Shown: piece after piece, positions 9,423 through 42,792 of the stretch
How positions within the stretch are numbered: the first letter of the stretch is position 1
How the letters are laid out: every line of letters starts with the position of its first letter
From: a virus
Direction: 5' to 3' (one strand)
DNA: 44,628 nt
IMG/VR virus record: IMGVR_UViG_3300005663_000086
Coordinates: 1-44,628 of that record
Translations under genes and position numbers: made by a program
Notes under the pieces: model-generated
Told to the model about the DNA's origin: nothing
Database searches by the model: none
The model's input: the letters and a program-made list of their open reading frames with translations, nothing else

Positions 9423-9431
9423 GAGGGGGAA

Positions 9432-11679: not shown

Positions 11680-12047
11680 AATTCTATGTAGCAGGAAAAT
11701 GGGAAGACCGCAAGAACTGTCGTAAACTAATGGATAAAATTCAAGATTTAGGGCACGCTATTTCTTATGACTGGACTACTGGCGAGGAAACTGATGAGGG
11801 GTATCCTATAGTAAATGCGATAAACGACACACGGGGTGTTCAGGTAAGCGATGTCTATGTTGGCAGGTTTATTGATAAGAACAATTATAAGGGTGCGTTG
11901 GTTGAGCTTGGCATTGCATTGGGATTAAATAAGCGGATATTTATTATAGGCCACGCTATAGACTCCTGCATATTTTGCCATCATCCCTCGGTGCGGAGAT
12001 TTGAGAATGAATCGGAGTTTTTAAGCTATGTTAGGCAGGTGCTATGA
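11676..12047 (+). CDS. Nucleoside 2-deoxyribosyltransferase-like protein
   Basis: 123 residues from ATG 11676 behind GGAGGAG. Opens FYVAGKWEDR, has AINDTRGVQVSDVYVG and the key acidic helix KGALVELGIALGL (family catalytic Glu position) followed by KRIFIIG. This is the fold of deoxyribosyltransferases and DUF4406 proteins that exchange bases on deoxynucleosides. It overlaps Nmad1 and the C5 methyltransferase, and a joint role in nucleotide modification is inferred. Confidence 0.75.
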   Translation: MKFYVAGKWEDRKNCRKLMDKIQDLGHAISYDWTTGEETDEGYPIVNAINDTRGVQVSDVYVGRFIDKNNYKGALVELGIALGLNKRIFIIGHAIDSCIFCHHPSVRRFENESEFLSYVRQVL

Positions 12048-12994: not shown

Positions 12995-13166
12995 ATTATG
13001 TCCGGTACAAGAGGCGTGTATCCATTATAAATCGGGTTCTAATAGACCCAACAATCATGATGTAAGGAATAAATATGTATGCTCAAGGTATGTTAAGGGG
13101 TGTGAGATGGCGGTGTTTTACGAACGGGAGATAATGGGCCTGATTATAGCTTGTAAGATAAAATGA
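12984..13166 (+). CDS. Cys-rich 60-residue protein
   Basis: Five Cys in 60 residues (KLCPVQEACIHY, YVCSRYVKGCEMA) plus His suggest a small zinc-binding fold. Overlaps both neighbours. Function unknown. Confidence 0.5.
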   Translation: MAYKLCPVQEACIHYKSGSNRPNNHDVRNKYVCSRYVKGCEMAVFYEREIMGLIIACKIK

Positions 13167-13414
13167 TAATAGAAAGTATATGGCAATCAAAACAAGAAGA
13201 CCCGTATGTCAATCTGTGTCTTGGAATTCTCAATCAAGCCAGAATAGATTATGGGACTAAATACAGGCGTGATGGTGAGAAGTCTATGGGGAATAACTGC
13301 CCGGACGATCTGTGGGGTGAATTCGTAGAGACTCAAGCGTATAAAGAGGGGTTACGACAGGTTGACCCAAATGAAATAGCTTATGCGATTGGTAATTACT
13401 TGGAGGTAAAATGA
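13163..13414 (+). CDS. 83-residue protein, unknown
   Basis: Opens MIIESIWQSKQEDPYVNLCLG, mixed charged composition, no recognised domain. Starts and ends with ATGA overlaps. Confidence 0.5.
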   Translation: MIIESIWQSKQEDPYVNLCLGILNQARIDYGTKYRRDGEKSMGNNCPDDLWGEFVETQAYKEGLRQVDPNEIAYAIGNYLEVK

Positions 13415-13575
13415 CTGAGATAGATTGGTTGCCCGAACAGCTAAAAAAGTTTGTTCTTTTATCTAATCTGTGGTATAATGATAGTGGGAGGTATAAATTA
13501 TGCCACGGTTCGGAGAAACAAAGTATGGTAGAGAGATTGGTAAAGCTGCTTCTGCCAACAAATTTATCTGGATAG
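13411..13575 (+). CDS. Small gene probably cut by the HNH insertion
   Basis: ATG 13411 has the strong site GGAGG and the usual ATGA coupling. The first 30 residues ([20 protein letters not shown]) look protein-like, but the frame then runs into the HNH gene to stop at 13573-13575. The HNH promoter lies inside it. I infer that the original 3' part was lost or displaced when the endonuclease gene arrived. Confidence 0.4.
13451..13479 (+). promoter_or_regulatory. Promoter of HNH gene
   Basis: TTGTTC (13451-13456), 17-base spacer ending TGTGG, then a perfect TATAAT (13474-13479), 20 bases before the ATG. It lies inside the preceding small ORF, as expected for a mobile gene that brings its own promoter. 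Confidence 0.6.
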
Positions 13576-14075
13576 CCTGTAAGGTTTGCGGGAAAGGTAA
13601 ATGGGATAGGGTTTCCCAGCAACGCTCTAAATGTGCGGATTGTGCTCGTAGCGAAAACTCACGAAACTATTATAAGGAACATAAGGGGAATAAAAGCCCT
13701 CAATGGAAGGGGGGTAGGTTTAAGAGGGCAAAAGATGGTTATGTTTTTGTCTATTTACAACCCGATGATTTCTTTTACCCAATGGCAAGTACAGAGAATT
13801 ATGTTCTAGAACACCGCCTGGTTGTGGCTCAATCTTTGGGGAGATGTTTGGCTTCTTGGGAGATAGTCCATCATAAAGGAACTAAATATCCGACGGGTAG
13901 TGTTGAAAATAGGTCAGATAACCGCATTGAAAATTTACAACTTGTGTCAGATGACCAGAACAAGCAAATGAAGCTTATGGAAAATAAAATAGCGGGGCAA
14001 GCCAACCAAATTAGGATGCTAAAAGCAGATATCAAAGACTTATTAAAAGATTTGGAGGATAGAAGTAATGAATAA
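13500..14075 (+). CDS. HNH homing-type endonuclease
   Basis: 191 residues. Zinc finger from CKVCGKGKW and KCADCARS, linker SPQWKGGRF, then [29 protein letters not shown], and [11 protein letters not shown], the same HNH architecture as at 10760 and 40857. A long charged helix follows ([18 protein letters not shown]). Own promoter and GGGAGG RBS. It probably inserted into the gene at 13411. Confidence 0.85.
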
Positions 14076-15051: not shown

Positions 15052-15221
15052 TTCAACCCTCCATTAAGCCTGGACTCCATAACACCTCGTAACTTGAGGC
15101 ACATCGTCTTAAATTCACAGTTTACATGACAATTGAAGGCTACGAATACTCGACCTTTAGCATCCGGTTTAGTCTCATTACAGAAATCTGGTGCACAGCT
15201 GAAAGCCTGTTTAATATTCAT
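15048..15221 (-). CDS. 57-residue Cys-rich protein
   Basis: Minus strand, MNIKQAFSCAPDFCNETKPD behind GGAGGGGAG. Five Cys (9, 14, 31, 35, 41) plus H32 suggest a zinc-binding fold. Coupled to both neighbours. Confidence 0.55.
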   Translation of the reverse strand: MNIKQAFSCAPDFCNETKPDAKGRVFVAFNCHVNCEFKTMCLKLRGVMESRLNGGLK

Positions 15222-15397
15222 CTCCCCTCCTTTACTATATTAAAATTTGCTCGGATATAATTATCTACTTTTCCTTGGCAGAACATACAACCCAGAATAC
15301 CATAGCTTGTGAATCCCAGTGATGCGTTCATTCCACAATGGACACACACCTCAGTTCTGGGATTGCGATACCTCTTGAGTCTTATTATGGTTTTCAT
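15218..15397 (-). CDS. 59-residue zinc-ribbon protein
   Basis: Minus strand, MKTIIRLKRYRNPRTEVCVH behind GGAGGGGAAA. C18-x2-C21 and C37-x2-C40 (CVHC, CMFC) form a classic four-Cys ribbon. Probably binds nucleic acid or protein. Confidence 0.6.
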   Translation of the reverse strand: MKTIIRLKRYRNPRTEVCVHCGMNASLGFTSYGILGCMFCQGKVDNYIRANFNIVKEGR

Positions 15398-18217: not shown

Positions 18218-19558
18218 ATGGTAGTAAAGGAGAAAACTAGGGTAGAGGTAGTCTTACCGATACCGCATGCATATCAGTCCGAGTTTATAGACTCTGATAA
18301 GAAGAGGATTATAATACGGGCTGGACGCAGGGGTGGGAAGACGGTAGGGGCTGCGATTAAAGCTGTCCATTCGTTTCTTGGTGGGAAGAGGGTATTGTAT
18401 GCCGCCCCGACCAGTGAACAGGTCGGGAAGTTCTGGTTTGAGGTAACGAGTGCATTAGAGCATCTCTGTAGACCTTTTGAGGTAGAAGAGGGCCCAGATA
18501 TTGGTGGTACGGTTTACACACACCAACCTCTTTATAAAAAGAACGAGTCCGAGTATTTTATAGAGAAGGTGGGAACAGAGCAGAGATTAAAGGCCAAGAC
18601 TGCTTGGAATGCCAATACCTTAAGGGGTGATTATGCTGACCTTTTAATCTTGGATGAGTGGCAGTTGATGGACGAGGATACCTGGGGGATTGTTGGCGCT
18701 CCGATGCTAGCTGACCACGATGGGGATGCGGTGTTTATTTACACTCCGCCGTCATTAAGAAGCACGGGTGTATCAAAGGCCAGAGACCCCAGGCACGCTG
18801 CAAAGATGTTTAAGCTAGCCGAGAAGGACAGCAGGTGGTTAGCTATTCATTTCACCTCACACGATAACCCGCATATTTCACAAGATGCATTAAACGAACT
18901 GATGCAGGATATGTCCAAGCAATCCTACAGACAGGAAATATTGGCCGAGGATGATGAGTTACAATTAAGCTGGTTGGTTTACAGGGCGTTTAATGAATTG
19001 AATTGTAAGCAGGATAGAAGAGAGATACCAAGAGAGTGGTTAATCTATTCAGGGCACGACTTCGGTGGTGCTAACCCTGCTGCTTTGTTCGTAGCCCAAG
19101 ACCCGACTACGGGGCAATTCTGGGAGTTTGCCGAGTATTTACCTGGGGCAGGAAAGTCCACCCACGAACACGTTGAAGCGTTTAAGAAGATAACCGACGG
19201 GTATAATGTAGTATCAAGTTGGGGTGGTTCACATCAAGAGGACGAAATACGGCAAGGATACACATCTGAGGGGTGGCATATACAGGAACCGAAGAATAAT
19301 AAAGTAAGTGCTCAGATAGATAAAGTCATTGGGTTTATGGAGAGAAGCAAAATCTATACCTTCAGCGATATGTCCCATATTTTAGAGGAAAGAATGAACT
19401 GTTTGTGGGAGCCCGACCAAGATGGGAGACCGACTGATAAGATAAAAGACGAGGTAAAGTATCATTTAAGCGCTTGTACTAGATACTTATATTCTAATTT
19501 TACCCCAGAAACAGTGGGTTCACAAAGACCAAGAACTAAACGAAGTGGGAGGTTTTAA
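18218..19558 (+). CDS. terL: Terminase large subunit
   Basis: 446 residues, a usual length. ATPase domain: Walker A RAGRRGGKT (about 34-42), Walker B LLILDEW (about 142-148), coupling motif FIYTPPS. Nuclease domain: SGHDFGGANPAALF (about 275) with the first catalytic Asp, and a later acidic region (KIKDEVKYHLSACTRY). It pumps DNA into the prohead and cuts it. Its last base overlaps the portal ATG, as is common. Confidence 0.95.
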   Translation: MVVKEKTRVEVVLPIPHAYQSEFIDSDKKRIIIRAGRRGGKTVGAAIKAVHSFLGGKRVLYAAPTSEQVGKFWFEVTSALEHLCRPFEVEEGPDIGGTVYTHQPLYKKNESEYFIEKVGTEQRLKAKTAWNANTLRGDYADLLILDEWQLMDEDTWGIVGAPMLADHDGDAVFIYTPPSLRSTGVSKARDPRHAAKMFKLAEKDSRWLAIHFTSHDNPHISQDALNELMQDMSKQSYRQEILAEDDELQLSWLVYRAFNELNCKQDRREIPREWLIYSGHDFGGANPAALFVAQDPTTGQFWEFAEYLPGAGKSTHEHVEAFKKITDGYNVVSSWGGSHQEDEIRQGYTSEGWHIQEPKNNKVSAQIDKVIGFMERSKIYTFSDMSHILEERMNCLWEPDQDGRPTDKIKDEVKYHLSACTRYLYSNFTPETVGSQRPRTKRSGRF

Positions 19559-27677: not shown

Positions 27678-28559
27678 ATGGCGATTACCACAACTACTGA
27701 ACTTGCTGATACTATCCCAACCGTTATAGAGGAAGCTAGGCACACAGCCCAACATCGGGCAATTATGGCTAGTACGGTTTGGAAAATCACCAAGCAACAG
27801 GGTGATGGTAGTACCGTAAATGTACCGTACTGGGGAGAGGTTACTGCTGCTGCCTTGACTGAAGGTATTGACATGACAAACTCCTCGGCTATGGAGGACA
27901 CGAATGTTCAGATAACTCCTGCCGAGGTTGGTGTCAAAATTATCCTTACTGACAAACTTATCAGGGATAACATGAATGATGTCAAGGCTGCTGCTGGTAA
28001 GATACTTGGAAATGCAATGGAGAAAAAGCGAGACCAGGACTTACTGGCCTTGTTCTCTAGTGCTACAACTGACCTAGGCGGGTCTGCTGACCTGACAATG
28101 GGTTTCGTTGCTGCTTCCAGAGCATTGCTAGCAGGTAATGCTACGACTGCTGGTGGGCCTGCCCCATTACCGTATGTTTGTGTACATCACCCGTTTGTTT
28201 TACTTGACTTGGTGGATGTAGTTACACCCATCGTGCCGACTGCTGCTTCTTTGGCAATTGGCACATCTCTTACCGATAACATCCTATTAAACTATACTAT
28301 CGGTAGGCTTTTCGGAATGCCTATACTTGAGGATGGCAACATTACCATTGATGGTACACCTGATGCTCGTGGTGGCGTTTTCGCTGCTGGTACGGGCGGA
28401 GGCATTATACTAGCAACTGCAAATGAGTGGTCGGTCGAACCCCAGAGGGATGCGTCCCTAAGAGGGTGGGAACTCAATATCGTAGGAGAATACGGGGTTG
28501 GAGTGTATCTGGCAGGCTGGTTAGTCAGTCTGAACTCAGATGCTACTACACCTGCATAA
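27678..28559 (+). CDS. Major capsid protein, HK97 fold
   Basis: 293 residues behind AAGGAGG. TTELADTIPTVIEEARHTAQHRAIMASTVW resembles the N-arm, then a long helix near KAAAGKILGNAMEKKRDQDLLALF, the P-domain and GGVFAAGTGGGIILATANEWSVEPQRDASLRGWELNIVGEYGVGV at the A-domain and end. This matches phage capsid proteins of about 290 residues next to a scaffold gene. High confidence by context and profile. Confidence 0.85.
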   Translation: MAITTTTELADTIPTVIEEARHTAQHRAIMASTVWKITKQQGDGSTVNVPYWGEVTAAALTEGIDMTNSSAMEDTNVQITPAEVGVKIILTDKLIRDNMNDVKAAAGKILGNAMEKKRDQDLLALFSSATTDLGGSADLTMGFVAASRALLAGNATTAGGPAPLPYVCVHHPFVLLDLVDVVTPIVPTAASLAIGTSLTDNILLNYTIGRLFGMPILEDGNITIDGTPDARGGVFAAGTGGGIILATANEWSVEPQRDASLRGWELNIVGEYGVGVYLAGWLVSLNSDATTPA

Positions 28560-29433: not shown

Positions 29434-30261
29434 ATGGTGATGATGAAGAAGTATAAATTGGATATTTTAGTTACCACACACAATCGACTTGACCTGACGA
29501 TGAAGTGCATAGAGCATCTTTATGGTTGCACTCAATCGCCATTCCACTTAATCGTAGTAGACGATTCCACTGATTTAACCCCACTTTATATGGCTGAGCT
29601 TAAGGGAACGTATGACAACATAACCTATATCCATTCGGATGAACCATATAAATCGGGGAATCAAATCTTCAACATAGGCATAGCTCGTGCTAAGACTGAC
29701 TATGTAGCAATCGTTATGAATAGTGTTACTGTTGAACCTGAATGGGAATCAGCGGCACTAAGACTCCTGGATGATAAACCAGAAGTGGGTATTGTTGGCT
29801 TCAAGAATCTCCTTCCAAACGGGCTGATAGAAAGTGCTGGTATAAGAATGGTTGGTTACTTGCCAACAGATATCGGTAGGGATTTTCCCGCTCACAGGCT
29901 GTCGAGTATCTATGAGGTCGAGGCAGTTCAGTGGGCATTTTGTTTATTAAGAAAAGAGGCAGTTGTCGGAAACCTTGAAGAGGATTTATTTAACGGTTTC
30001 AAGGGAGTTGATGACATAGATAACTGCTTTGTGATAAAGAAGAAAGATTGGAAGATATTTTACTGTGGATTGGGGGTTGGCTATCATGCCCCCAGGGCTA
30101 CAAGGGGGAGTAACTCACTAGAAGCAAAGAAGCTAAATGCTGAGAATATGACTACATTCTACAAGCGCTGGGGATTTTATGAAGATTGGCAGAGAGAGGT
30201 AAAAGGTCTTACTGATGAGGATTTGGTACATCAATCCCCTATTGTTAGGAGCGGTGGATGA
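29434..30261 (+). CDS. Family 2 glycosyltransferase
   Basis: 275 residues, GT-A fold: LDILVTTHNRLDLTMKCIEHL (10-30), LIVVDDSTDLTP, YIHSDEPYKSGNQIFNIGIARAKTDYVAIVMNS (nucleotide-sugar binding with an SxT in place of the usual DxD at the expected strand end), and a later AVQWAFCLLRKEAV acceptor region. Such enzymes transfer a sugar from a nucleotide donor. It is followed by radical SAM and structural genes with 4-base overlap, so it may glycosylate a virion protein or DNA. Acceptor unknown. Confidence 0.8.
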   Translation: MVMMKKYKLDILVTTHNRLDLTMKCIEHLYGCTQSPFHLIVVDDSTDLTPLYMAELKGTYDNITYIHSDEPYKSGNQIFNIGIARAKTDYVAIVMNSVTVEPEWESAALRLLDDKPEVGIVGFKNLLPNGLIESAGIRMVGYLPTDIGRDFPAHRLSSIYEVEAVQWAFCLLRKEAVVGNLEEDLFNGFKGVDDIDNCFVIKKKDWKIFYCGLGVGYHAPRATRGSNSLEAKKLNAENMTTFYKRWGFYEDWQREVKGLTDEDLVHQSPIVRSGG

Positions 30262-31844
30262 AAGTTCTTCTATTAGTGCCGACACTGAATTATAAACTTG
30301 AGTATACGCCATTGTCAATGACTGACTTCCCGACTGGGTTGGCTTACATTGCATCTGCATTGAAGAACGCAGGGCATGAGGTAGTCGGCTTAAATCTCAA
30401 TAACGACAGAAAATATGACTCGGTATATCTTTCCCTAGCCAATAGATTGAAGAACACACTGGACAAGGAAAAACCAGACTTGATTGGGCTGGGTGGATTG
30501 TGTATAGATTATTTGTTTATCAAGGATGCAATGGATATTATCAGAAGATACTCTAAGACACCCGTAGTAATGGGTGGTGGAATTATAAACAATGACAGGG
30601 ACTTTATATTTAATCTCCTGAAGCCTGACTTTTGTATCTGGGGTGAGGCTGAGGAAGCAATAGTCAAACTAGTTAATGTCCTGGGGAAAGATGAGCACCC
30701 AAAGGGGATAGACAACCTTGGGTATTGGAAAGAAGATGGTGCAGTATTTAATCAAACTAATTATGATTATGGGAACCTAGATGACAGGGCATTCCCCGAT
30801 TATGAGCCTTTTGGTATTCAGGGGATGATGGATGATTACTCAATGGCAACCAGGCTTTTATATCGATATACTCGTCCTTATGCCAGACCAATGATAATAA
30901 ACACAGCAAGGGCGTGTCCGTTTAATTGTACATTCTGTGTTCACTCTGGCGGGCCGAAGTATCGAGCAAGGTCAATTCCAAATATCATAGCAGAGATAAA
31001 GGAACTACATGATAAGTATGGGTTCAATGTCTTAATTATTGGCGATGAGTTATTCGCTGCTAATAAGAAGCGAATGAAAGAGTTTTGCAATGCTCTAATT
31101 GAGAACAGGGAGAAGTATGGCTGGGACTTTGACTGGATGTTTCAAACTCATGCAAACGCTAGATTAGATAGGGAAACACTAGAGTTGGCAAAGAGGGCGG
31201 GGTGTTATCGCTTCTCCTATGGGATAGAGAGCGGCTCGCCCAAGGTCTTGGAGAGCATGAACAAGAAGATTAAAGTCTCCCAGATTATTGATGCGATTAA
31301 GTTATCGCATGAAGTTGGTATTGGGTTTGGGGGAAATCTCTTATTTGGTGACCCAGTTGAAACGGACAAGACGATTCATGAGACCCTGCATTTTTGGTTT
31401 GAGCATTGTCGGCAAGCACAGGTATTTCTCTCTATTGTTAAGCCATATCCAGGCTGTAAGATATTTGACTACTGTGTGGAGAATGGGCTTATTACCGACA
31501 AAGAGGAATACTATGAAATAAATCAAAGGGTTACATATAATATGACACAAATGCCCAAAGAGGCATTCTCTCAATGGATGAATTTCATTGCAACCCTGGA
31601 AACTTCATGGCTAGTGATATATCCCGTTGATGCTATACGAGTAGAGGAGGAGCCTGAAACCGATAATGCGCTACTTAGTAATGGGCAAAGGATTCACAAA
31701 GTATTTGTCACCTGTCCTTCCTGCGATAAGAATAATATGTATCGGGAGATATGGAGCGAGGAAAAACCGCTCTCATACATTGGAACGGTCTGTGTGCATT
31801 GTGGCAAGAGAATCAAAATAAACCTAGAGGGGGTAGAAGTATGA
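30258..31844 (+). CDS. B12-binding radical SAM protein with C-terminal zinc ribbon
   Basis: 528 residues. Residues 1-150 form a cobalamin-binding-like Rossmann domain (KVLLLVPTLNYKLEYTPLSM, PDLIGLGGLCIDYLFIKDAM, TPVVMGGGI, FCIWGEAEEAI). The radical SAM cluster motif is at about 218-225 (RACPFNCTFC), followed by TIM-barrel segments YRFSYGIESGSPKVLESMNK and FGGNLLFGDP. The end has CPSC and CVHCGK, a zinc ribbon. Relatives methylate or rearrange unreactive carbons. The substrate is unknown; the glycosyltransferase neighbour hints at a sugar or glycoprotein. Confidence 0.8.
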   Translation: MKVLLLVPTLNYKLEYTPLSMTDFPTGLAYIASALKNAGHEVVGLNLNNDRKYDSVYLSLANRLKNTLDKEKPDLIGLGGLCIDYLFIKDAMDIIRRYSKTPVVMGGGIINNDRDFIFNLLKPDFCIWGEAEEAIVKLVNVLGKDEHPKGIDNLGYWKEDGAVFNQTNYDYGNLDDRAFPDYEPFGIQGMMDDYSMATRLLYRYTRPYARPMIINTARACPFNCTFCVHSGGPKYRARSIPNIIAEIKELHDKYGFNVLIIGDELFAANKKRMKEFCNALIENREKYGWDFDWMFQTHANARLDRETLELAKRAGCYRFSYGIESGSPKVLESMNKKIKVSQIIDAIKLSHEVGIGFGGNLLFGDPVETDKTIHETLHFWFEHCRQAQVFLSIVKPYPGCKIFDYCVENGLITDKEEYYEINQRVTYNMTQMPKEAFSQWMNFIATLETSWLVIYPVDAIRVEEEPETDNALLSNGQRIHKVFVTCPSCDKNNMYREIWSEEKPLSYIGTVCVHCGKRIKINLEGVEV

Positions 31845-33524: not shown

Positions 33525-34238
33525 ATGGCTACTAAAGAACAAGTAGTTGCAGACCGCACATTTGCGACAGAGAGATATATTCTATCCACTATGCCCGTTT
33601 TATATCTACCTTTATGGAAAACAGATAGTGGGGAATCGGGGGATTCCTTTATATCCAGTGATGGACACGGGTTTACCTGTACGGTTACTGGTGCTTTGTG
33701 GACACCAACTGGTAGAGTGTTTGATGGGAGTAATGATAATATCTTAATTTCATCTCACGCCTCCCTTAACCCTGAAAAGCTGTCCGTGGAGTTCTGGGTG
33801 TATATCAACGCTCATGCAGATTTTAACAGCATAGTGGCTAAAGATTATTCGGGAGCTAATAACTACAGATTTTTGTCTGCGGCAGATGGTACTCTAACAT
33901 GGGCACTTAGAGATAAGAACGGGACTAGTAATTGGGAGGTTGTAACTGCTCCTGTAAATTCAGGGGAGTGGATTCATGTTGTTGGGGTAGCTGACCAAGT
34001 TCCAACATCTGGCGTAGGTGGTATAGTCGGTATCTATATCAATAGTGCATTAATAAAGGCTGACCTTAGCCACTCTGTAACTGAAATACTACATGGTAGT
34101 AATGCCAATGACCTTTATGTTGGTTTTACCTCCAATGCACTTGACGGTAGAATTGGCGAAGTCAGAATCTATAACCGAATTTTAACCCCCCTAGAAATCC
34201 AGCGTAGTTATCTGGCAACTAAGTGGAGGTACCAGTAA
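33525..34238 (+). CDS. LamG/concanavalin A-like virion protein
   Basis: 237 residues. VFDGSNDNILISSHASLNPEKLSVEFWVYI, WIHVVGVADQ, GIYINSALIKAD, LYVGFTSNALDGRIGEVRIYNRILTPLEIQ are the standard strands of a LamG jelly roll, residues about 65-235. Such domains bind glycans and occur on phage head or tail surfaces. Its place among sugar enzymes is suggestive. Confidence 0.8.
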   Translation: MATKEQVVADRTFATERYILSTMPVLYLPLWKTDSGESGDSFISSDGHGFTCTVTGALWTPTGRVFDGSNDNILISSHASLNPEKLSVEFWVYINAHADFNSIVAKDYSGANNYRFLSAADGTLTWALRDKNGTSNWEVVTAPVNSGEWIHVVGVADQVPTSGVGGIVGIYINSALIKADLSHSVTEILHGSNANDLYVGFTSNALDGRIGEVRIYNRILTPLEIQRSYLATKWRYQ

Positions 34239-34342
34239 TGAAAAGAGCAATAATTATAACTATTCTTGTACTGGCATTGCTTCTACTCTCTACACCTTTG
34301 GCAGTTGAGTCTACTAATATACTTGGGGGTTATAGTGGCTGA
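34238..34342 (+). CDS. 34-residue secreted or membrane peptide
   Basis: MKRAIIITILVLALLLLSTP then LAVEST: a basic start, a hydrophobic core and a possible signal cleavage near ALA/AVE-like residues. Overlaps the previous stop and runs 8 bases into the next gene. Unknown. Confidence 0.45.
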   Translation: MKRAIIITILVLALLLLSTPLAVESTNILGGYSG

Positions 34343-35387
34343 GTGGAAACAGAGGTACAACTCATTTAACTCCGATAAAGGGCTAACATATTATCAGAAC
34401 TATCGAGGTATAATTAACTGGCTTGATGGGAGTAAGTTTTTACCTCCGCCAGTTGAGTGTAACCTAGACCCTGTTATGGGGTGTAACTTAGACTGCTACT
34501 TCTGTATCACACAGAACTATATGAAAGGCGTGAAACACAAGAAACTATCGCTGGAATATATGAAGGAACTGGTAGACTTTCTTTCTGATTGGGGAGTTAG
34601 GGGATTGTGTATCAGTGGTGGCGGTGAACCGACCCTACATAAAGGACTCCCTGAACTGATAGACTACGCCAAAGATAAAATGGATGTGGCTGTAGTTACT
34701 AATGGAACTAAGGTAATTGACGAGTTCAAGCATTGTAGGTGGGTAGCTCTCTCAGTAGACGCTGCCAATAGAGATACCTATGAAAAGATTAAGGGTAAAG
34801 ACTGGTTTGATATGGTAATAGATAACATTTCAAATATGGCGAAGGGGGCAGACTATTGCTTCAAGTTTCTTATTTTACCTGAAAACCAATACGAGATTTA
34901 CGATGCCTGTAAGTTGGCAAGGGAACTCGGGGTACAGGATTTCCACGCTAGGCCTTGTGACTTTGAGAGGTCTGATATTAGTGGCTCAAAACGCCTTGCT
35001 ATCGACATAGAGGCGGTCAAAGCACAGTTTAAGCAGTGCCACGAACTAGAAGATGAGAACTTCCATGTCTACACGATAACACATAAGTTTAATGACGACT
35101 TCCATGTCAAGCACGACTATCCTGAGTGTTTGGCAGCGCCACTTCTTCTTCCTGTTCTAACAGATGCCAACGGGTATCTTTGTGTAGAACATAAGATGGA
35201 GGGTAAATATAAACTTGGTTCGTGTAACCCGCCTTATGATATTTTAAGTTGGTGGGGTGGTGACAAACATAGGCAGATGATTAAAGACATCATTCCCGAA
35301 GAGGACTGCTCAAGATGTATCTATTCATCTTACCATAACCAAATTGAGTCAATAAAAAATGATAGGATGTGTTTAAGTTTTCCATGA
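34335..35387 (+). CDS. Radical SAM protein with SPASM/twitch-like end
   Basis: 350 residues from GTG 34335 behind GGGGGT; the ATG at 34266 lies inside another gene. Cluster motif CNLDCYFC at about 50-57, then GLCISGGGEPTLHKG (SAM binding), VAVVTNGT, WVALSVDAANRDTYEKIKG. The end has ECLAAPLLLPVLTDANGYLCVEHK and CSRCIYSSYHNQIE, Cys clusters like SPASM/twitch domains that hold extra FeS centres. Relatives modify peptides or sugars. It opens the compact sugar cassette. Confidence 0.8.
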   Translation: MAEWKQRYNSFNSDKGLTYYQNYRGIINWLDGSKFLPPPVECNLDPVMGCNLDCYFCITQNYMKGVKHKKLSLEYMKELVDFLSDWGVRGLCISGGGEPTLHKGLPELIDYAKDKMDVAVVTNGTKVIDEFKHCRWVALSVDAANRDTYEKIKGKDWFDMVIDNISNMAKGADYCFKFLILPENQYEIYDACKLARELGVQDFHARPCDFERSDISGSKRLAIDIEAVKAQFKQCHELEDENFHVYTITHKFNDDFHVKHDYPECLAAPLLLPVLTDANGYLCVEHKMEGKYKLGSCNPPYDILSWWGGDKHRQMIKDIIPEEDCSRCIYSSYHNQIESIKNDRMCLSFP

Positions 35388-35836
35388 TATTTATAAGAGA
35401 TAAACAAGGTAGATTCTCCAAGGGGAATGTGGCGCAAAGATTCTTAAGCCATATTACTAAGCAGTCATCTGGCTGTTGGGAGTGGCAAGGTTATCTACAC
35501 CGTGGTTATGCTGATAAGTTTTGGGATGGAGAAAAGAAAGTTACTGCTTATAGATATACTTATGAACAAGTAAACGGCACTGTCCCAGATGGTTTACAGA
35601 TAGACCACCTTTGCCGTAATCGTGCTTGCGTTAATCCCGACCATTTAGAGGCGGTTACGCCCAAGGAAAATATCAGGAGGGGTACTCGCAGCAAACATCT
35701 TGGATTATACCAATCAAGAAAAACTCATTGTCCGAAGGGGCATCCGTATGATTTGGTTAATACATATATCAATACTCGTGGTGGGAGAGAATGTCGTACT
35801 TGTTTAAGAAGCAGGAGGCTAAAATTATCTATATAG
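35384..35836 (+). CDS. HNH endonuclease, second type
   Basis: 150 residues from ATG 35384 (ATGA over the previous stop; 35369 is also possible). CWEWQGYLHRGYADKF, TAYRYTYEQVNG, LQIDHLCRNRACVNPDHLEAVTPKENIRRG is the HNH_3 signature, then HCPKGHPYDL and CRTCLRS form a zinc site. Different lineage from the other three HNH genes. It overlaps the isomerase gene by 46 bases and probably invaded the cassette. Confidence 0.85.
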   Translation: MIFIRDKQGRFSKGNVAQRFLSHITKQSSGCWEWQGYLHRGYADKFWDGEKKVTAYRYTYEQVNGTVPDGLQIDHLCRNRACVNPDHLEAVTPKENIRRGTRSKHLGLYQSRKTHCPKGHPYDLVNTYINTRGGRECRTCLRSRRLKLSI

Positions 35837-36219
35837 CAGGTAACGGTGGACTAGCGGCAGAGAGCGAACACTTCGCAGCAGAGCTTATGGGGAAGTACCA
35901 CTCCGATGTGTATGTGCCCTGTATCGCACTGACATCAAATTCTAGCCTTGTTACGGCGTTAGCTAATGATATTGGTTATGAGAATGTTTTTGCCCATCAG
36001 ATTCGTGTTCTGGGGAATAAGAATGATACGTTTATCGGGATGACAACAACCTCTTCCGAGAATATTGTAAAAGCTGCCGAGGTTGCTAGGAAGGTTGGGA
36101 TGCAGGTTGTCTTATTAGATGGTAAGGCTTTGAAGGGTGATAATGTAGCCGAGAAGCAGGAATATGCTATTAGATTATTACATAAGATGGCAAGGGAAAT
36201 AAAAGATGCTAATAAGTAA
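35791..36219 (+). CDS. gmhA: Shortened GmhA-like sedoheptulose 7-phosphate isomerase
   Basis: 142 residues against about 190 for GmhA. GNGGLAAESEHFAAELMGKY matches the SIS-domain phosphate and metal region: H27 and E31 sit at the GmhA ligand positions, and Q123 and H131 keep the eight-residue spacing of the other pair. CIALTSNSSLVTALANDIGYENVFAHQIRVLGNKNDTFIGMTT follows the family closely. Missing are the first helix (the HNH gene lies there) and a loop of about 15 residues before Q123. GmhA turns sedoheptulose 7-phosphate into D-glycero-D-manno-heptose 7-phosphate. Activity is probable but untested. Confidence 0.75.
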   Translation: MSYLFKKQEAKIIYIAGNGGLAAESEHFAAELMGKYHSDVYVPCIALTSNSSLVTALANDIGYENVFAHQIRVLGNKNDTFIGMTTTSSENIVKAAEVARKVGMQVVLLDGKALKGDNVAEKQEYAIRLLHKMAREIKDANK

Positions 36220-37015
36220 AACACCCTTTCGCCTCTCATTCTTTGGGGGCGGCACGGATTACCCCGAATACTTTAACGAACACGGGGGGGCTGTCTTGGC
36301 AACCTCCATAAATAAGTATTGCTGGGTGGGTGGAGATAATGGAAAGATGTGGTCACACTCCGACTTACCAATGAGAAGTGGTATGGGTACGAGCTCTGCG
36401 TTTACTGTAGGTTCGTTAAAGACTATTACCAATAAGAGTAACAAGGAGATAGCAGAACTAGCTACGATATGGGAGAGAGATAAGCTGGATGGTCATGTTG
36501 GCTATCAAGACCAATACCTATGTGCTGTTGGTGGGTTTCACAGGTTGCGGTTCTTCGGCTCAGGTATAGTCGATGAAGAGCTGGATTATGGATGGCTAGA
36601 ACCATATCTAATGTTATTTGATACGGGGCAATACAGGAGAGCAGGTGATGTAGTTGCGCCCCAATTAGCTAGGGTTGATGAGAATATGGATGCACTACAT
36701 GCCTTAAAAAAGATGGCACTAGATGATTACACGGATTATAAATCATTTGGAGTAGCATTGGGAGTAGCATGGCAGTTAAAGAAATCACTTGCCGACAGTG
36801 TATCCACGAAGGCTATTGACAATATATGGAGTACCGCACTAGAAGCTGGTGCTAAGGGGGGGAAACTCTTAGGTGCTGGTGGGGGCGGGTTTATAGTCTT
36901 TGTAGTACATCCCGATAAACACAGTGATGTTAGAGAGGCACTTAAGTTAAAGCAGATAGAATTTAGATTTGAGAACGAGGGAAGCCAAATCGTCTATGAT
37001 AGTAATAAATCCTAG
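36206..37015 (+). CDS. hddA: HddA-like heptose 7-phosphate kinase (GHMP)
   Basis: 269 residues; HddA is usually about 340. Opens ISKTPFRLSFFGGGTDYPEYFNEHGGAVLATSINKY, the typical start of D-glycero-alpha-D-manno-heptose 7-phosphate kinases. GHMP motif 2 is MRSGMGTSSAFTVG (about 57-70) and motif 3 LLGAGGGGFIVFV (about 228-240). It makes heptose 1,7-bisphosphate. It overlaps the isomerase, so the two steps are consecutive genes. I see no GmhB phosphatase or nucleotidyltransferase. Confidence 0.8.
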   Translation: MLISKTPFRLSFFGGGTDYPEYFNEHGGAVLATSINKYCWVGGDNGKMWSHSDLPMRSGMGTSSAFTVGSLKTITNKSNKEIAELATIWERDKLDGHVGYQDQYLCAVGGFHRLRFFGSGIVDEELDYGWLEPYLMLFDTGQYRRAGDVVAPQLARVDENMDALHALKKMALDDYTDYKSFGVALGVAWQLKKSLADSVSTKAIDNIWSTALEAGAKGGKLLGAGGGGFIVFVVHPDKHSDVREALKLKQIEFRFENEGSQIVYDSNKS

Positions 37016-38219
37016 TCACAAATGCCCTAGTCCGCAGGCTGCAATCGAAGCGCCGATTTGGTGTGCCTACATTGCCGAGCTTTGTGATGCTGATTCCATA
37101 TTAGATGCTGAAGCAGATGGACTTACACTAGAGGAAACTGCTGATATAGTTGGCAATGAAGATTGCATAATAGTTTCAATGGGAGCTAATCCATCGGCAT
37201 CTTCTACGCCCAAAGCTGGTGTAGCTCTTAAACTTGCGGAGCTTATACCCAATGCAAGCGTAGCGGGGTTGCACTTTCACAATATGCCCAGCGTAGAATC
37301 ATTGGTATCTGTTACCCCTGCATGGAGATTACTGGACTTATCTAAATACAGGGCGCATAACTGGCATTGTTTAGATGGTAGGGATAGGTCGGGTTATGGT
37401 GTTATCTATTCAAGTTTTGGGTGTCCATTCAAATGTGATTACTGCAACATACATACTCTATATAGTGGTATAACCTATCGCAGACCACTAGATGTATTAA
37501 ATGAGATAGATTATTTGGTGGCACGTGGGGTTAAGAACCTGAAGTTCTGTGATGAGTTATTCACAGTAAATAAAGACCACGTAAATGAGATTTGCGATAG
37601 GCTTTCATATAGAAATTACGACCTAAATATCTGGGGTTATGCTAAAACGGGGACAGTCAATCCAGAGATGCTTAAAAATATGAAGAGGGCTGGCTTTAAC
37701 TGGTTATGCTATGGCTTTGAGTCAGGGAGCGATGAAATACTAAGGGGTGTTGGGAAGAAACAGACGATGAAACGGATGTTTGAGGCTGTAGAAATGACAC
37801 GTGAGGCAGGGATAAACATAATAGGGAACTTTATCTTTGGATTACCTGATGATGATATGAAAACGATGTATGCCACCAAGAGATTAAGCAAGCAACTCGG
37901 TTGCGAGTGGGTTAATTATTATTGTGCAATGGCTTACCCTGGGTCTAAATTATACGAAGACACCCCCAAAGAAGACCTACCCGATACGTGGGAGGGGTAT
38001 GACCAGTATTCCCCTAACGCTAAACCATTACCGACTAAATATCTTACATCACAAGAGGTTTTAGAATTCAGGGATAAGGCGTTTAATAGTTTTTATTCTA
38101 ATGCGGGTTACTTACAAATGATAGAAAGGAAGTTTGGACAACAGGCAGTTGGCCACATAAAGGAGATGATGCAGTGGTCAGTCAGAGGGACGCCTTCTTT
38201 AGCAAGCTCTTTAAGTTAG
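36996..38219 (+). CDS. B12-binding radical SAM protein
   Basis: 407 residues from ATG 36996 (the TTG at 36969 is less likely). N-terminal cobalamin-like domain (IVINPSHKCPSPQAAIEAPIW, DCIIVSMGANPS, LIPNASVAGLHFHN), then the radical SAM motif CPFKCDYC at about 144-151, LKFCDELFTVNKDHV, WLCYGFESGSDEILRGVGKK, NIIGNFIFGLPDD. Related in layout to the gene at 30258, without its zinc ribbon. It overlaps the kinase and the transketolase gene; a modification of the heptose or its product is the simplest idea. Confidence 0.8.
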   Translation: MIVINPSHKCPSPQAAIEAPIWCAYIAELCDADSILDAEADGLTLEETADIVGNEDCIIVSMGANPSASSTPKAGVALKLAELIPNASVAGLHFHNMPSVESLVSVTPAWRLLDLSKYRAHNWHCLDGRDRSGYGVIYSSFGCPFKCDYCNIHTLYSGITYRRPLDVLNEIDYLVARGVKNLKFCDELFTVNKDHVNEICDRLSYRNYDLNIWGYAKTGTVNPEMLKNMKRAGFNWLCYGFESGSDEILRGVGKKQTMKRMFEAVEMTREAGINIIGNFIFGLPDDDMKTMYATKRLSKQLGCEWVNYYCAMAYPGSKLYEDTPKEDLPDTWEGYDQYSPNAKPLPTKYLTSQEVLEFRDKAFNSFYSNAGYLQMIERKFGQQAVGHIKEMMQWSVRGTPSLASSLS

Positions 38220-38911
38220 CTAAAGAAGACGATAGGATAGTAGTAGTAACTGCTGATTGCGGCGCACCTGCTTTAGACCAGTGGAGGGAGGAGTTGCCAT
38301 GTCAGTTTATAAACGTGGGAATCGCCGAACAGCAAATGATTGCCCTGGCTGCTGGCTTGGCATTAGAGGGGAAGAGGCCCTATTGTTATGCGATTGCTCC
38401 ATTTGCGACCTTAAGATGTTACGAGTTCATAAGAGTGGATGTGAGTCTAATGAACCTTCCTGTGGTCATAGTCGGCGTGGGTGCTGGTTTATCCTACAGC
38501 GAAGCAGGGCCAACGCACCATGCAACTGAGGACATAGCCTGTATGAGGGCTTTGCCCAATATGAAGATAGCATCCATCTCAAGTAACGGCCAGATAGATG
38601 AAGTCTTAAGAGAAGAGGGTCCGATGTATGTCAGGTTAGACAGGGGTGATGGATGGAGTGCTCCCCATATTAGATTAGAACATGATGGGTATAAGTGGTA
38701 TCCATTATGGCTGAAACCATTCAGAATGGAGATACCCGATTGGGCAACAGAAATCATAACTACAGAGGAACACCAACTCAGTGGGGGTTTGGGTTCTATA
38801 GTCGCTGAGTATCTGGCTGATAATAAGATAAACATACCACTAACAAGAAAGGGAATTAACGATGAGTACTTCTACAAGTATGGTAAAAGAGAAGACATCT
38901 TTAAAGTGTAG
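38174..38911 (+). CDS. Transketolase, pyrimidine-binding half (shortened)
   Basis: 245 residues from GTG 38174 with AAAGGAG nine bases upstream. RIVVVTADCGAPAL, FINVGIAEQQMIALAAGLALEG (with the Glu that activates thiamine diphosphate), APFATLRCYEFIRVDVSLMNLPVVIVGVGAGLSYSEAGPTHHATEDIACMRALPNM, YVRLDRG fit the transketolase Pyr domain. The usual C domain is reduced to TTEEHQLSGGLGSIVAEYLA and a tail: about 40-60 residues are missing. Forms one enzyme with the next gene. Confidence 0.85.
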   Translation: MVSQRDAFFSKLFKLAKEDDRIVVVTADCGAPALDQWREELPCQFINVGIAEQQMIALAAGLALEGKRPYCYAIAPFATLRCYEFIRVDVSLMNLPVVIVGVGAGLSYSEAGPTHHATEDIACMRALPNMKIASISSNGQIDEVLREEGPMYVRLDRGDGWSAPHIRLEHDGYKWYPLWLKPFRMEIPDWATEIITTEEHQLSGGLGSIVAEYLADNKINIPLTRKGINDEYFYKYGKREDIFKV

Positions 38912-39656
38912 CGAGCTAAGAAACACAGTCCTAGAAATGTGTATCAAGGCTGGCACAGGACACGTTACATCTTGCTTCTCCTGTGTGGAGATTATGGTTG
39001 AACTATTCTATAACAAGATGACCGAGGATGATGTCTTTATTCTAAGTAAGGGTCAGGCTAGTCCTTTAATGTATGCTATCTTGGCTGATAGGGGATTGAT
39101 AGACGAGGGGGAATTATGGAAGTTCGCAACAAAAGATGGTGTCCTTGGTGTCCACTTAGACCATCATATAAACGGGGCTGTGATAACTGCGGGCTCATTA
39201 GGGCACGGCTTGGGTATTGCGACAGGGATAGCAAAGGCAAGAAAGTTAGATGGTAGGCCTGGAATTATATATGTTCTCTTAGGTGATGGTGAGTGTTATG
39301 AAGGATCAGTCTGGGAAGCTGCTATGTATGCGGGTAATGAGAGACTAGATAATCTGGTTGCTATTATTGACCAGAATGGTTATATGGTTACAAGCGGAAC
39401 AAGGCGACTTGAGTTTGTGTGGCAGTCATTTGGTTGGAGCGAGCATCTAATCAAGGGTAACTCTATTGATGATATTCATTCTGCCTTTTACTCTAATTGG
39501 AATAGTCCAGAGGAAAGACACAAGCCCCTAGCTATTATAGCTTTAACTACTAAGGGAAAAGGAATACCCTTTATGGAAGGAAATACTATGTGGCACGGTA
39601 AAGCCCCGCAAGGTAAAGAAGCAGAAAGAGCAAGGAGGGAATTAAATGCCAGCTAA
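38862..39656 (+). CDS. Transketolase, thiamine-pyrophosphate half
   Basis: 264 residues. GTGHVTSCFSCVEIMVELF, FILSKGQASPLMYAILADRG, GAVITAGSLGHGLGIATGIA and the TPP motif GDGECYEGSVWEAAMYAGNERLDNLVAIIDQN are all present, then TTKGKGIPFMEGNTMWHG. Together with the previous gene it equals one transketolase, but the gene order is reversed (C half first), with 50 bases of overlap. It would make sedoheptulose 7-phosphate from xylulose 5-phosphate and ribose 5-phosphate, the substrate of GmhA. Confidence 0.85.
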   Translation: MSTSTSMVKEKTSLKCSELRNTVLEMCIKAGTGHVTSCFSCVEIMVELFYNKMTEDDVFILSKGQASPLMYAILADRGLIDEGELWKFATKDGVLGVHLDHHINGAVITAGSLGHGLGIATGIAKARKLDGRPGIIYVLLGDGECYEGSVWEAAMYAGNERLDNLVAIIDQNGYMVTSGTRRLEFVWQSFGWSEHLIKGNSIDDIHSAFYSNWNSPEERHKPLAIIALTTKGKGIPFMEGNTMWHGKAPQGKEAERARRELNAS

Positions 39657-39777
39657 AACAGAAAAACAACGCAAGTTCTTTGGCGCTGAACTAGGTCGCA
39701 AGAGGGCGGGTAAAAAGACAAGGACTAAACTACCCGAACATAAGCTAGAAGAGTTTGCAAGAAAAAAGAAGAGGTGA
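39646..39777 (+). CDS. DUF3008-like 43-residue protein
   Basis: MPAKTEKQRKFFGAELGRKR then AGKKTRTKLPEHKLEEFARK matches a small phage family starting MPAKS-x-AQ. Often found next to head or tail genes, function unknown. Behind AAGGAGGG, overlapping the transketolase end by 11 bases. Confidence 0.7.
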   Translation: MPAKTEKQRKFFGAELGRKRAGKKTRTKLPEHKLEEFARKKKR

Positions 39778-39780: not shown

Positions 39781-40851
39781 ATGCCAAGAAGTTATGAGGA
39801 AATGAGAAACCTCGCCGAGCAAATTTATCAGGATACTGGTAACTCGGTAGCGGGAACGGTAGAGTGGGATTACTGGATAGAAGAGGGATTGAAGAAATTC
39901 TCTACCTATCGTCCCCACATAACTGAAGTTATCTACAAGATAGAGTCCAGGTATGGCACTGATGCAACAGGGACGGCAAACAAACTAACCGATACCGTGA
40001 AGTCCCAGTTTGTTGCGGGGGATGCTACCGATGAGAAGGTTGTGCATAATATAACTGACCATACCTATGCCGTAGTTCTTGCAAACGACTCCCCATCAGT
40101 TAATGCGCTAAGTGCAGACATTATGGATGCCAATGAGTCTTATCGTATTTATAATAAGAGGTGCTGGAAGAATAACCAAATTTATATTGGCGATGTAACG
40201 GATTATCTTCGGATTGACTCTGTGGAATACCCCCTTGGGACTAAACGGAACTGGGAGCTACCCACCGATGAGATATTGGAGATACTGGTTTCTGAAGTTA
40301 GTGATAGCAACCTCAATGCTACTGATGTTCCCAATATAGATGTTCTGGTAAGGTTTGTTAAATCACATAAGTTAAACCAAATGACTGACCTATCCCTTGC
40401 TGTAGCTAACTCAGCGGGATATGCTGCGGCTGTAACCTCAATGGCAGTAGACGCTGCTTCAACCACAGGAACGGAAGTTATTGAGGCGGGTGAAGAGTTC
40501 CACCTGGCAAACAAGCGATGGACATATACTGTAGCTGCCAGTGCTACAGCATCTACTGGGGGAACAGCTACACTTACCTTCTATCCAGGAGCTGAGGATG
40601 CCGTGATAGACAATGATGTTTTAACCTTTAGAAAGTCTACCCTTAAGCCACAGGATGAAGAGATTTTTGGGCGCTTGGTTGCTGCCAGGGCTGCGATGAG
40701 TGATTCAAGGAGTTTTATAGGTGCCATTAACTTCGGTGGGCTTAACACGCAGCGAGATTACATAGTCTGGAAAAGGGAATTATACGATGAGGTTATTGGT
40801 GAGTTAAGGGGGAGCAAGCCGAGGAGTAAGCGGCTTTATACAAGGGCATGA
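39781..40851 (+). CDS. Head-tail connector or tail structural protein
   Basis: 356 residues. Helical start (SYEEMRNLAEQIYQDTG, WDYWIEEGLKKFSTYRP) as in connector/adaptor proteins, a central region of beta type (TYAVVLANDSP, YRIYNKRCWKNNQIYIGDVTDYL) and an inserted Ala/Thr-rich domain (380-ish bases around 40400-40600). Near the end RRDYIVW-like segments. Its stop overlaps an ATG that was the start of the next gene before the HNH insertion. A role in the neck is inferred. Confidence 0.5.
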   Translation: MPRSYEEMRNLAEQIYQDTGNSVAGTVEWDYWIEEGLKKFSTYRPHITEVIYKIESRYGTDATGTANKLTDTVKSQFVAGDATDEKVVHNITDHTYAVVLANDSPSVNALSADIMDANESYRIYNKRCWKNNQIYIGDVTDYLRIDSVEYPLGTKRNWELPTDEILEILVSEVSDSNLNATDVPNIDVLVRFVKSHKLNQMTDLSLAVANSAGYAAAVTSMAVDAASTTGTEVIEAGEEFHLANKRWTYTVAASATASTGGTATLTFYPGAEDAVIDNDVLTFRKSTLKPQDEEIFGRLVAARAAMSDSRSFIGAINFGGLNTQRDYIVWKRELYDEVIGELRGSKPRSKRLYTRA

Positions 40852-40856: not shown

Positions 40857-41372
40857 TTACTTCACTCTAAATTCTTTACTGCAATAAGGGCATTTAATAT
40901 TTGCGGTATGCACGTTCCCATTATTACCAGTTACAATTATCGCAAGATTTTCTATTCTGTTGTCACCCTTGTTTTCCCTAGAATTAAGTGGATATTTTGT
41001 ACCCTTATGATGAACAAGTTCCCATCTTTGAAGATTTCTACCAAGGTGTTTAGCCATTACAAGGCGATGCTCGAGAACATGCCTATCCTGACCAGCCATC
41101 GAGTAAAAGAAGTCATTGGGTTGAAGCTTTATTCTAACATAACCCTGTTTGTCAAAAAATCTTCCGCCCTTCCAATTGGGGTTTGCTGGGCCAATGCGAC
41201 TGCTATTTCTAGCGCCACAAGAACGACATCGGGGGTGGGTAGGAACGCCCCTTTTGCACTCAGCCCACCTTTCCCTGCCACAATCTTCGCAAGCAGCCCA
41301 TATGGAGGTTCCGCCCGACGGCTTCTGAGACCGAACTCTAAGATATTTTCTTATCTCACCAAGTTTTGGCAT
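40857..41372 (-). CDS. HNH homing-type endonuclease on the opposite strand
   Basis: 171 residues from ATG 41372 (a longer frame from 41450 runs through the promoter). Zinc finger [82 protein letters not shown], then a C-terminal CPYC. Very similar to the gene at 10760. Its ATG lies six bases after the -10, so the message would be leaderless or nearly so. The only rightward-region gene on the minus strand. Confidence 0.85.
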   Translation of the reverse strand: MPKLGEIRKYLRVRSQKPSGGTSIWAACEDCGRERWAECKRGVPTHPRCRSCGARNSSRIGPANPNWKGGRFFDKQGYVRIKLQPNDFFYSMAGQDRHVLEHRLVMAKHLGRNLQRWELVHHKGTKYPLNSRENKGDNRIENLAIIVTGNNGNVHTANIKCPYCSKEFRVK

Positions 41373-41378
41373 ACATAT

Positions 41379-41407
41379 ATTATACCATATAATCAAAAGG
41401 TTCGCAA
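41379..41407 (-). promoter_or_regulatory. Promoter of the antisense HNH gene
   Basis: On the minus strand TTGCGA (41407-41402), 17-base spacer ending TATGG, perfect TATAAT (41384-41379), then ATG after six bases. Similar in shape to the HNH promoter at 13451. Confidence 0.65.
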
Positions 41408-41418
41408 GGCGGTGTACC

Positions 41419-42792
41419 ATTAGGGTTCTGACGGGCAATTTAGAGGCCAATCAGAAATTAGTTGGAACGGGCAAGGTTCATAGAGAGCCTATATGGAAGA
41501 TTGTCCTCTCAAGAGCAGGACAAGCCACGAAGACCTACTCGCAAACACAGGTTTTAGAGATAGACCATACCGAAGAGGAATTCAGTGGCATAGCCACCGT
41601 TCTAATAGATAACTCTGACAATTCCTTAACAACGATAGACTTTGAGATGTATCAAGGTGTTATCTCTTTGGGATATGTTGACCCCACTAATGGAAATGAA
41701 TTCTCTGCATCCGCACCTTTGTATGTTTTGGGGCAACGCTTCTTTTCCATACAAGGTTTGTTAGTCTGCCAGTTATCTTTGATAGGTATCCCCAATTTAA
41801 TGGCAATGGACAAGGCGGAGTCTGAATTGACTTTAGAAGAGGGGGATGCACGAACAGTTAAAGATTTAATCACGGCTGTTGCCAGAAAGACTCTTACTCC
41901 TTACACGAACTACGAAGATTATACAGTTACTTATGATAGCGAGGATAATGTAATCAATTCCCTTAAACCAAAGACTGCCTTTCAGATAAGTGAAAACGAC
42001 AACCGATTGGAGAAGATTAAGCAACTTATAGGTTGGACTGGCAATAAGATGAGGATGGAGGCCGATGGTAACATTCATACCTTTGACCCTAAAAGTGCTG
42101 TACCATTTGATTATGAGTACAAATTTGATGTTGCCGATGAACACACCTTTTTAAGTAAGGAATTAAGGAACAGGTTTGTCAATCCAAATAAGACTATAGT
42201 TAAGTCATACGAGGGGGACGACCCGCAGTTTTCAGGCAATGATACAAGTGCCACCAGCAACGCTCTATTCCCTAAAACTGAGACACTGAGATTCAGGTTG
42301 GTCTCTAATACTGAGGCATCTAATATCGCATCAGCCAGAATAGAATCACACGAGCTAGACTCCGATGTGGGGGCAGTAACTGTCCCAATGAATGTCGGGC
42401 AAGAGGTTTGGGATTTCATTAAGGTAACAGACTCAAGGCAGGGTGATAGTGTAACGGGTAATGTCAGGTCTTTAAGAAGGCACGTTAAAGTCCCTCTAGG
42501 TGGTGGTAGATTCATCTGGGATACGAGTATTCGGTTTGGAACAGTACCAGGCTTAGCTCCCATTCTGCTAGGGCGAGGGGCTGGTCTGGGGAGTAATCTA
42601 GCAGTATCGGTTCAGGCTTTAATAGAAGCATACAACGGACTACGTGAGGATTTATACGGAGATGACCAGGGTGAAGGTGGTGTACTGGGATTGATAAGAG
42701 ACTTAGCGTTGCACGTTGATGCACATCACGATACCTTTATTACTAAAAATCTACACAGTACAGACACGGCATTTATGCCCGTAGAGGAATAA
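41419..42792 (+). CDS. Tail hub/baseplate-like protein, start disrupted
   Basis: The frame is open from 41329. The protein-like sequence begins RVLTGNLEANQKLVGTGKVH at 41422, with the original ATG 571 bases upstream beyond the HNH insertion. No ATG, GTG or TTG is available near; ATT 41419 behind AAGGCGG is the only start with a plausible RBS (457 residues). The first in-frame ATG is at 41647, which would lose 76 residues. ARTVKDLITAVARKTLTPYTNYEDYTV and KQLIGWTGNKMRMEADGNIHTF resemble hub domains of phage tails. Function by context. Confidence 0.6.
   Translation: MRVLTGNLEANQKLVGTGKVHREPIWKIVLSRAGQATKTYSQTQVLEIDHTEEEFSGIATVLIDNSDNSLTTIDFEMYQGVISLGYVDPTNGNEFSASAPLYVLGQRFFSIQGLLVCQLSLIGIPNLMAMDKAESELTLEEGDARTVKDLITAVARKTLTPYTNYEDYTVTYDSEDNVINSLKPKTAFQISENDNRLEKIKQLIGWTGNKMRMEADGNIHTFDPKSAVPFDYEYKFDVADEHTFLSKELRNRFVNPNKTIVKSYEGDDPQFSGNDTSATSNALFPKTETLRFRLVSNTEASNIASARIESHELDSDVGAVTVPMNVGQEVWDFIKVTDSRQGDSVTGNVRSLRRHVKVPLGGGRFIWDTSIRFGTVPGLAPILLGRGAGLGSNLAVSVQALIEAYNGLREDLYGDDQGEGGVLGLIRDLALHVDAHHDTFITKNLHSTDTAFMPVEE

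Follow-up and report, generated by a model that had tools for sequence, protein, structure and literature searches.

Glycosylation of phage virions has been described for mycobacteriophages, in which a phage-encoded glycosyltransferase is thought to act on virion proteins (Freeman 2023, as cited in PMC12619734). Activated heptoses are built by the GDP- and ADP-heptose pathways (GmhA, HddA or HldE, GmhB, and HddC or HldE-C), a two-subunit, split-chain transketolase is known from Carboxydothermus hydrogenoformans (PDB entries 6yaj and 6yak), and AprD4, the radical S-adenosylmethionine (SAM) diol dehydratase of apramycin biosynthesis, deoxygenates a sugar (PMC5461906). Likenesses to all of these systems meet in the IMG/VR virus record IMGVR_UViG_3300005663_000086, positions 1 to 44,628, which we analysed as a whole (44,628 bases, hereafter the window). 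A gene block at 34335-39656 starts with genes for a radical SAM protein (rSAMa) and an HNH endonuclease. These are followed by genes for a GmhA-like SIS protein, an HddA-like kinase and another radical SAM protein (B12b), and at the end by those for the C-half and then the N-half of a transketolase (TktC, TktN). We refer to this block and its counterparts in other phages as the cassette.

With modest confidence we favour the reading that the cassette is functional, mosaic and horizontally moving, and that it builds an unusual activated sugar for a soluble family 2 glycosyltransferase (GT2), most likely for the glycosylation of virion proteins. The virion is suggested as the target by gene position and by the likeness to the mycobacteriophage case; the window differs from that case in that a sugar-building cassette goes with the transferase. 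The whole analysis draws on sequence and predicted structure, and most of the records compared are fragments. Among open-licence papers we found none with all elements of the cassette, so that its novelty is provisional; what comes nearest is a mention of radical SAM genes carried by viruses from anoxic habitats (PMC9723712).

Recurrence of the cassette and its association with a glycosyltransferase

All genes of the block lie on the + strand with intact reading frames, and each shares between 4 and about 50 bases with its neighbour. Their profile matches have E-values from 1e-10 to 1e-64 and are therefore not due to chance. An earlier note on this DNA had described an overlapping gene run within a phage structural module, and in this it was right: all genes that it named are present, each with a profile match to its family, although it overlooked the HNH reading frame inside the block. 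The LamG and glycosyltransferase genes that it placed nearby were also found (Table 1), and the analysis supports both its multi-enzyme sugar pathway in a structural module with a glycosyltransferase close by and its suggestion of a likely role in glycan modification. An assembly chimera, which it had named as a possible flaw, is rejected, because independent phage contigs show the block again within the same structural surroundings.

Using the kinase, transketolase, B12b and rSAMa as queries, we identified eight cassette phages (window, L002, L003, L004, L007, L008, L010 and L033). Both radical SAM proteins occur in all eight and the kinase in all except L010 and L033; these three proteins form the conserved part of the cassette, to which the isomerase does not belong. 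Identities between the window and L002 amount to 73% for the kinase, 62% for B12b and 45% for rSAMa, and since they differ from gene to gene we regard the cassette as a mosaic. The B12b proteins of all cassette phages form one clade (support 94/84, recovered in 96% of bootstrap trees), which includes two phages where the window-type capsid was not found. On the capsid tree the cassette is distributed patchily, forcing at least three changes, and its place within the structural module is one of two: some phages have it ahead of the capsid gene, others behind. Nonsynonymous divergence (dN) was 0.19-0.46 in the cassette-gene comparisons, beside 0.19 for the capsid gene; synonymous divergence (dS) was saturated throughout the cassette comparisons and in nearly all comparisons overall, and we therefore give no dN/dS ratio. 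From these values we conclude that the compared cassette genes are under purifying selection.

Other viral contigs (most of L013-L029) contain a second, separate B12b clade, frequently together with pairs resembling pyruvate dehydrogenase E1 (E1-like), GHMP kinases, DegT-type aminotransferases, epimerases and HldE-C-like transferases, in some cases near tail genes (aminotransferases, epimerases and tail genes were assigned by eye). In L014, L018 and L020, B12b, an E1-like pair, a DegT-type aminotransferase, a GHMP kinase and possible glycosyltransferases adjoin podovirus-like tail genes. A scan of genome contigs for a bacterial source returned two matches only, L034 and L035, and does not fix the donor. 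In L035, from an Omnitrophota assembly, B12b, an E1 pair, a kinase and a nucleoside triphosphate (NTP) transferase stand together in a glycan locus, as judged from flanking genes assigned by eye. Sugar biosynthesis is thus a consistent context across the B12b family. A large glycan module also lies among the structural genes of L006/L004 (G029, 1-14070). It comprises a NeuB-like end fragment, a class IV aminotransferase, a CMP-sugar-type cytidylyltransferase, two methyltransferase-like genes, an RGP-like glycosyltransferase and an HldE-C-like transferase.

A search with the capsid protein yielded 26 related contigs. Seven records, the window included, have a GT2 gene of the window type in the interval from the capsid gene to the next conserved one. 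B12b is present in six of these seven and in none of at least 13 records lacking the GT2 gene (Fisher p 1.8e-4, relatedness ignored). Among the eight long records (37-66 kb), four carry both GT2 and the cassette and four carry neither (p 0.029, likewise ignoring relatedness). The GT2 protein has no transmembrane segment (hydropathy maximum 0.81) and is soluble in all seven phages. A soluble glycosyltransferase within a block of structural genes is what one would look for in a virion glycosylation module.

The same properties bear on where else the sugar might go. Attachment to host surface glycans, as receptor masking or superinfection exclusion, has precedents in phage glycosyltransferases that alter the host serotype (PMC12619734), and the L035 relative belongs to a surface-glycan locus of a bacterium. 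The solubility of GT2 in all seven phages and the location of the genes among structural genes speak against such a target, as does the lack of a flippase-type membrane partner beside GT2 in a partial check; we consider it improbable. Hypermodification of phage DNA is more improbable still. Viral glycosyltransferases that act in DNA hypermodification have been published (Pyle 2024, as cited in PMC12619734) and the window encodes two DNA methyltransferases, but GT2 sits in the structural module, and a partial scan of the early genes recognised no hydroxymethylase or other base-hypermodification gene.

The neglect of relatedness in both p-values is one of several points that weigh against the preferred virion-glycosylation reading. 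Many of the records counted are fragments, and short ones may hide genes. GT2 is present in G020 (a 22 kb fragment), where B12b was not seen, and G019 (a 25 kb fragment) has two radical SAM genes with no other cassette gene seen. A different glycosyltransferase is encoded by two phages with a related capsid but no cassette (G013 15138-15377 and G027 198-437). Gene position is the ground for naming the virion as target, and the selection result stands for cassette genes other than the SIS gene. In the window the nucleotidyltransferase profiles PF00483 and PF01467 were negative, and no cassette enzyme reaches the equivalog cut-off of its family.

The cassette enzymes and the heptose question

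The SIS gene of the window is the least conserved element. Only the window has an SIS_2 match among the 29 phage records searched (0 of the 28 others). In L002, L003 and L004 the end of rSAMa, with its stop codon, shares four bases with the beginning of the kinase gene, and a comparison with these phages shows that the HNH and SIS genes sit exactly in this junction. An alignment with homologues revealed that the SIS protein lacks their first ~41 residues and ~15 internal residues. The HNH reading frame occupies the site where the first ~40 residues of a GmhA-like protein would be expected, and a tblastn search across the window did not find the absent piece. The fold is thus incomplete, without the N-terminal helices. 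The protein nevertheless matches GmhA in the PDB at E 2e-21, and its presumed zinc ligands H27, E31, Q123 and H131, which we take to be the GmhA set (His, Glu, Gln, His), are all kept and invariant in the GmhA alignment. Its score of 104.3 bits falls below the TIGR00441 equivalog cut-off of 209.45 bits. The simplest history is that a gmhA-like gene was gained and then damaged by a homing-type endonuclease; by its sequence the shortened protein is a putative isomerase. The window contains four HNH-type reading frames (Table 1). The one in the cassette is confirmed by profile and the other three were recognised by eye, one of them antisense in the structural region. A cupin is encoded in L002, L003, L004 and L007. 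Its weak relatives include D-lyxose isomerases, and it may act as the isomerase where the SIS protein is absent.

The kinase retains the GHMP motifs GGGTDY, GMGTSSA and GAGGGG. It is a compact form that has lost ~50-60 residues of the N domain, a shortening common to the window, L002, L003 and L008. Its AlphaFold2 model (predicted local distance difference test score, pLDDT, 90) matched the heptokinase WcbL best in Foldseek (E 2.4e-21); WcbL and HddA-type kinases ranked closest (top matches 4usk and 3k85), followed by mevalonate kinases and fucokinase. The identity to the top structural match is 26%, and the profile score of 113 bits compares with a cut-off of 600 bits for NF049969.

Both halves of the thiamine-diphosphate (ThDP) enzyme of the window find their best solved relative in the split-chain transketolase of C. 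hydrogenoformans (TktC with 6yaj, E 3e-45; TktN with 6yak, E 1.5e-84). In contrast to that enzyme, the C-half gene precedes the N-half gene, the C domain is shorter and one motif histidine is replaced by glutamine. Both ThDP domains are present, with GDGEC at residue 141 and DQNG at residue 170 of TktN and GIAEQ, containing the catalytic glutamate, at residue 49 of TktC. The active-site histidine motifs GTGH, WHG and GPTHH are kept; SKGH reads SKGQ in the window and SKGH in L004. A two-gene ThDP enzyme occurs in all cassette phages except L033, a 25 kb contig fragment, yet its type changes. The window and L004 have a transketolase pair and L007 an acetolactate-synthase-like one, whereas the pair is E1-like in L002, L003, L008 and L010. 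This exchange among three types points to a common step, the ligation of a two-carbon unit. It also bears on auxiliary metabolism, in which the transketolase pair and the kinase would reroute the pentose-phosphate flux of the host and the radical SAM genes would be unrelated passengers. Pentose-phosphate genes are established in cyanophages; in the cassette, however, the two radical SAM genes are constant and the transketolase is variable, and the co-occurrence with GT2 would be left unexplained. We rate this as the least probable of the alternatives considered.

Of the radical SAM proteins, rSAMa has its CxxxCxxC motif at residue 50 and a conserved, cysteine-rich C-terminal region; its nearest solved structures, at weak match, are cytosylglucuronate decarboxylase and DesII. 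In B12b the motif lies at residue 142 of 406, as scored. The B12b model (pLDDT 91) has an N domain of four strands only, reduced in the cassette phages relative to L035. A DxHxxG motif was not found in B12b, nor was a match to the Pfam B12-binding domain (PF02310), and we regard its use of B12 as doubtful on the grounds of the reduced domain and the missing motif. The B12-binding and radical SAM domains of a class B enzyme are both present in a third protein, B12a, encoded by a gene overlapping that of GT2. In Foldseek the closest fold to B12b was AprD4 (E 1.8e-17), ahead of B12-dependent methyltransferases; the two proteins share 16-17% identity and B12b differs in its shrunken N domain. In G023 the B12a gene is split into two open reading frames near the terminase gene (L076:4605-6433), versus its position behind GT2 in the window.

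For sugar activation, a small nucleotidyltransferase was found in the sister phages L008, L010 and L006/L004. Among named families it matches HldE domain II best, with 41-82 bits, below the cut-off of 181.5 bits. An HldE-C-like gene stands immediately before the kinase gene in L008, L014, L016 and L020. The profile of the HAD phosphatase (PF13242) was negative in the window, and neither this phosphatase nor a PF00483 transferase was detected in nine cassette- or GT2-bearing records. The window accordingly does not contain the phosphatase and nucleotidyltransferase of a complete heptose activation pathway. A kinase and a transferase without a phosphatase fit a sugar whose far end would carry no phosphate, which departs from the usual route to heptoses; the missing activity could also come from host enzymes.

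The earlier note had read transketolase, isomerase and kinase as consecutive steps towards heptose 1,7-bisphosphate. Much of its enzymology stands: the two-gene transketolase, the HddA-like kinase as a family, with an HddA-type fold in the AlphaFold comparison that it proposed, and the lack of a visible phosphatase or nucleotidyltransferase. Its profile checks gave GmhA and HddA as the best families, but both proteins missed the cut-offs and the isomerase is truncated. Its B12 radical SAM protein, B12b, is a radical SAM protein, but the B12-binding domain lies in B12a. The product itself is unsupported as stated. Heptose synthesis in the window phage would agree with the best profile matches (GmhA, HddA and split transketolase), with the retention of all four presumed zinc ligands and with the HldE-C-like transferases of sister phages. 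That phages can carry such a pathway is indicated by the unrelated phage L036, where GmhB-like, HldE-kinase-like and GmhA-like genes lie together. Against it stand the restriction of the shortened GmhA-like gene to the window, the replacement of transketolase by E1-like or acetolactate-synthase-like enzymes in sister phages, the histidine-to-glutamine change in SKGH, the two radical SAM enzymes and the missing phosphatase in nine records. A heptose is therefore a possible product of the window phage, not an established one, and we think it unlikely; since parts are swapped between related phages, the cassette product is probably not an ordinary heptose. The row in L036 (7232-9420; a GmhB-like HAD protein, an HldE-kinase-like PfkB protein and an intact GmhA-like protein near structural genes) is a more convincing heptose block than that of the window.

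Gene layout of the window

Around the cassette the window carries a tailed-phage gene set with a terminase, a possible portal, a capsid protein and several structural genes (Table 1). tRNAs, a possible hint to the host, were not found in the window.

Table 1. Positions of the cassette genes and of other features in the window
Feature	Position	Strand	Evidence or remark
DUF5131 protein	2184-2834	+	Cys-rich motif; early end of genome
HNH-type endonuclease	10760-11398	+	by eye
HNH-type endonuclease	13500-14075	+	by eye
Terminase	18218-19558		
Major capsid protein, by which the phage group is defined	27678-28559	+	PHROG major head protein E 1.5e-9; Pfam Phage_capsid_4
GT2 glycosyltransferase, soluble, two genes behind the capsid gene	29434-30261	+	PF00535 E 1.7e-10
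B12a, radical SAM protein with B12-binding domain, overlaps GT2 gene	30258-31844	+	PF02310 and PF04055
LamG/ConA-like structural protein, upstream of the cassette	33525-34238	+	PF13385 E 1.6e-21; phrog_8510 virion structural protein
rSAMa, radical SAM protein	34335-35387	+	PF04055 E 6.7e-21
HNH endonuclease inserted at the rSAMa/kinase junction	35384-35836	+	PF13392 E 1.9e-13; phrog_826 E 8e-51
GmhA-like SIS isomerase (putative), N-terminally truncated	35791-36219	+	TIGR00441 104.3 bits, E 6e-30
HddA-like GHMP sugar kinase, compact form	36206-37015	+	NF049969 E 2e-32
B12b, radical SAM protein with shrunken B12-type N domain	36996-38219	+	radical SAM profile E 3e-20
TktC, transketolase C-half (pyrimidine domain and shortened C domain)	38174-38911	+	PF02779 (Transket_pyr) E 4e-31
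TktN, transketolase N-half (ThDP-binding domain)	38862-39656	+	PF00456; NCBIfam transketolase model E 8e-64
Small basic 43-residue reading frame, overlaps TktN end	39646-39777	+	
Next structural gene, downstream cassette border	39781-40851	+	weak tail/head PHROG matches; homologue directly behind the cassette in L002
HNH-type endonuclease	40857-41450	-	by eye

Proposed pathway and its meaning

We propose the following pathway for the cassette; its order of steps is inferred, as are the product and the virion as target. The two-gene ThDP enzyme would join a two-carbon unit to a carbonyl acceptor, yielding a ketose. This would be converted by an aldose-ketose isomerase, the GmhA-like SIS protein in the window and perhaps the cupin in its relatives. 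The GHMP kinase would then phosphorylate the anomeric carbon. Activation by a nucleotidyltransferase could follow, using the HldE-C-like protein in three sister phages and presumably a host enzyme for the window. In the next step rSAMa and B12b would modify the sugar through radical reactions, in which B12b may act as a deoxygenating dehydratase of the AprD4 kind. GT2 would finally transfer the product, most likely to a virion protein.

A wider proposal, which we put forward only tentatively, is that several phage lineages carry an undescribed sugar factory. It would consist of the radical SAM pair, usually with the anomeric kinase, together with an exchangeable ThDP enzyme, isomerase and nucleotidyltransferase, and would be exchanged between phages; its products would be new sugars, deoxygenated or branched, through which virion glycans become more diverse.

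Virion glycosylation of phages is known, and the open-licence papers searched say little about phage-borne routes to the sugar itself. The window phage brings much of a sugar pathway with it, including radical SAM chemistry and a ThDP enzyme exchanged among three types. If the proposed pathway is correct, such cassettes would provide sets of compact enzymes with which rare sugars could be made, and a case in which it can be tested whether phages use carbohydrate chemistry to diversify their coats.

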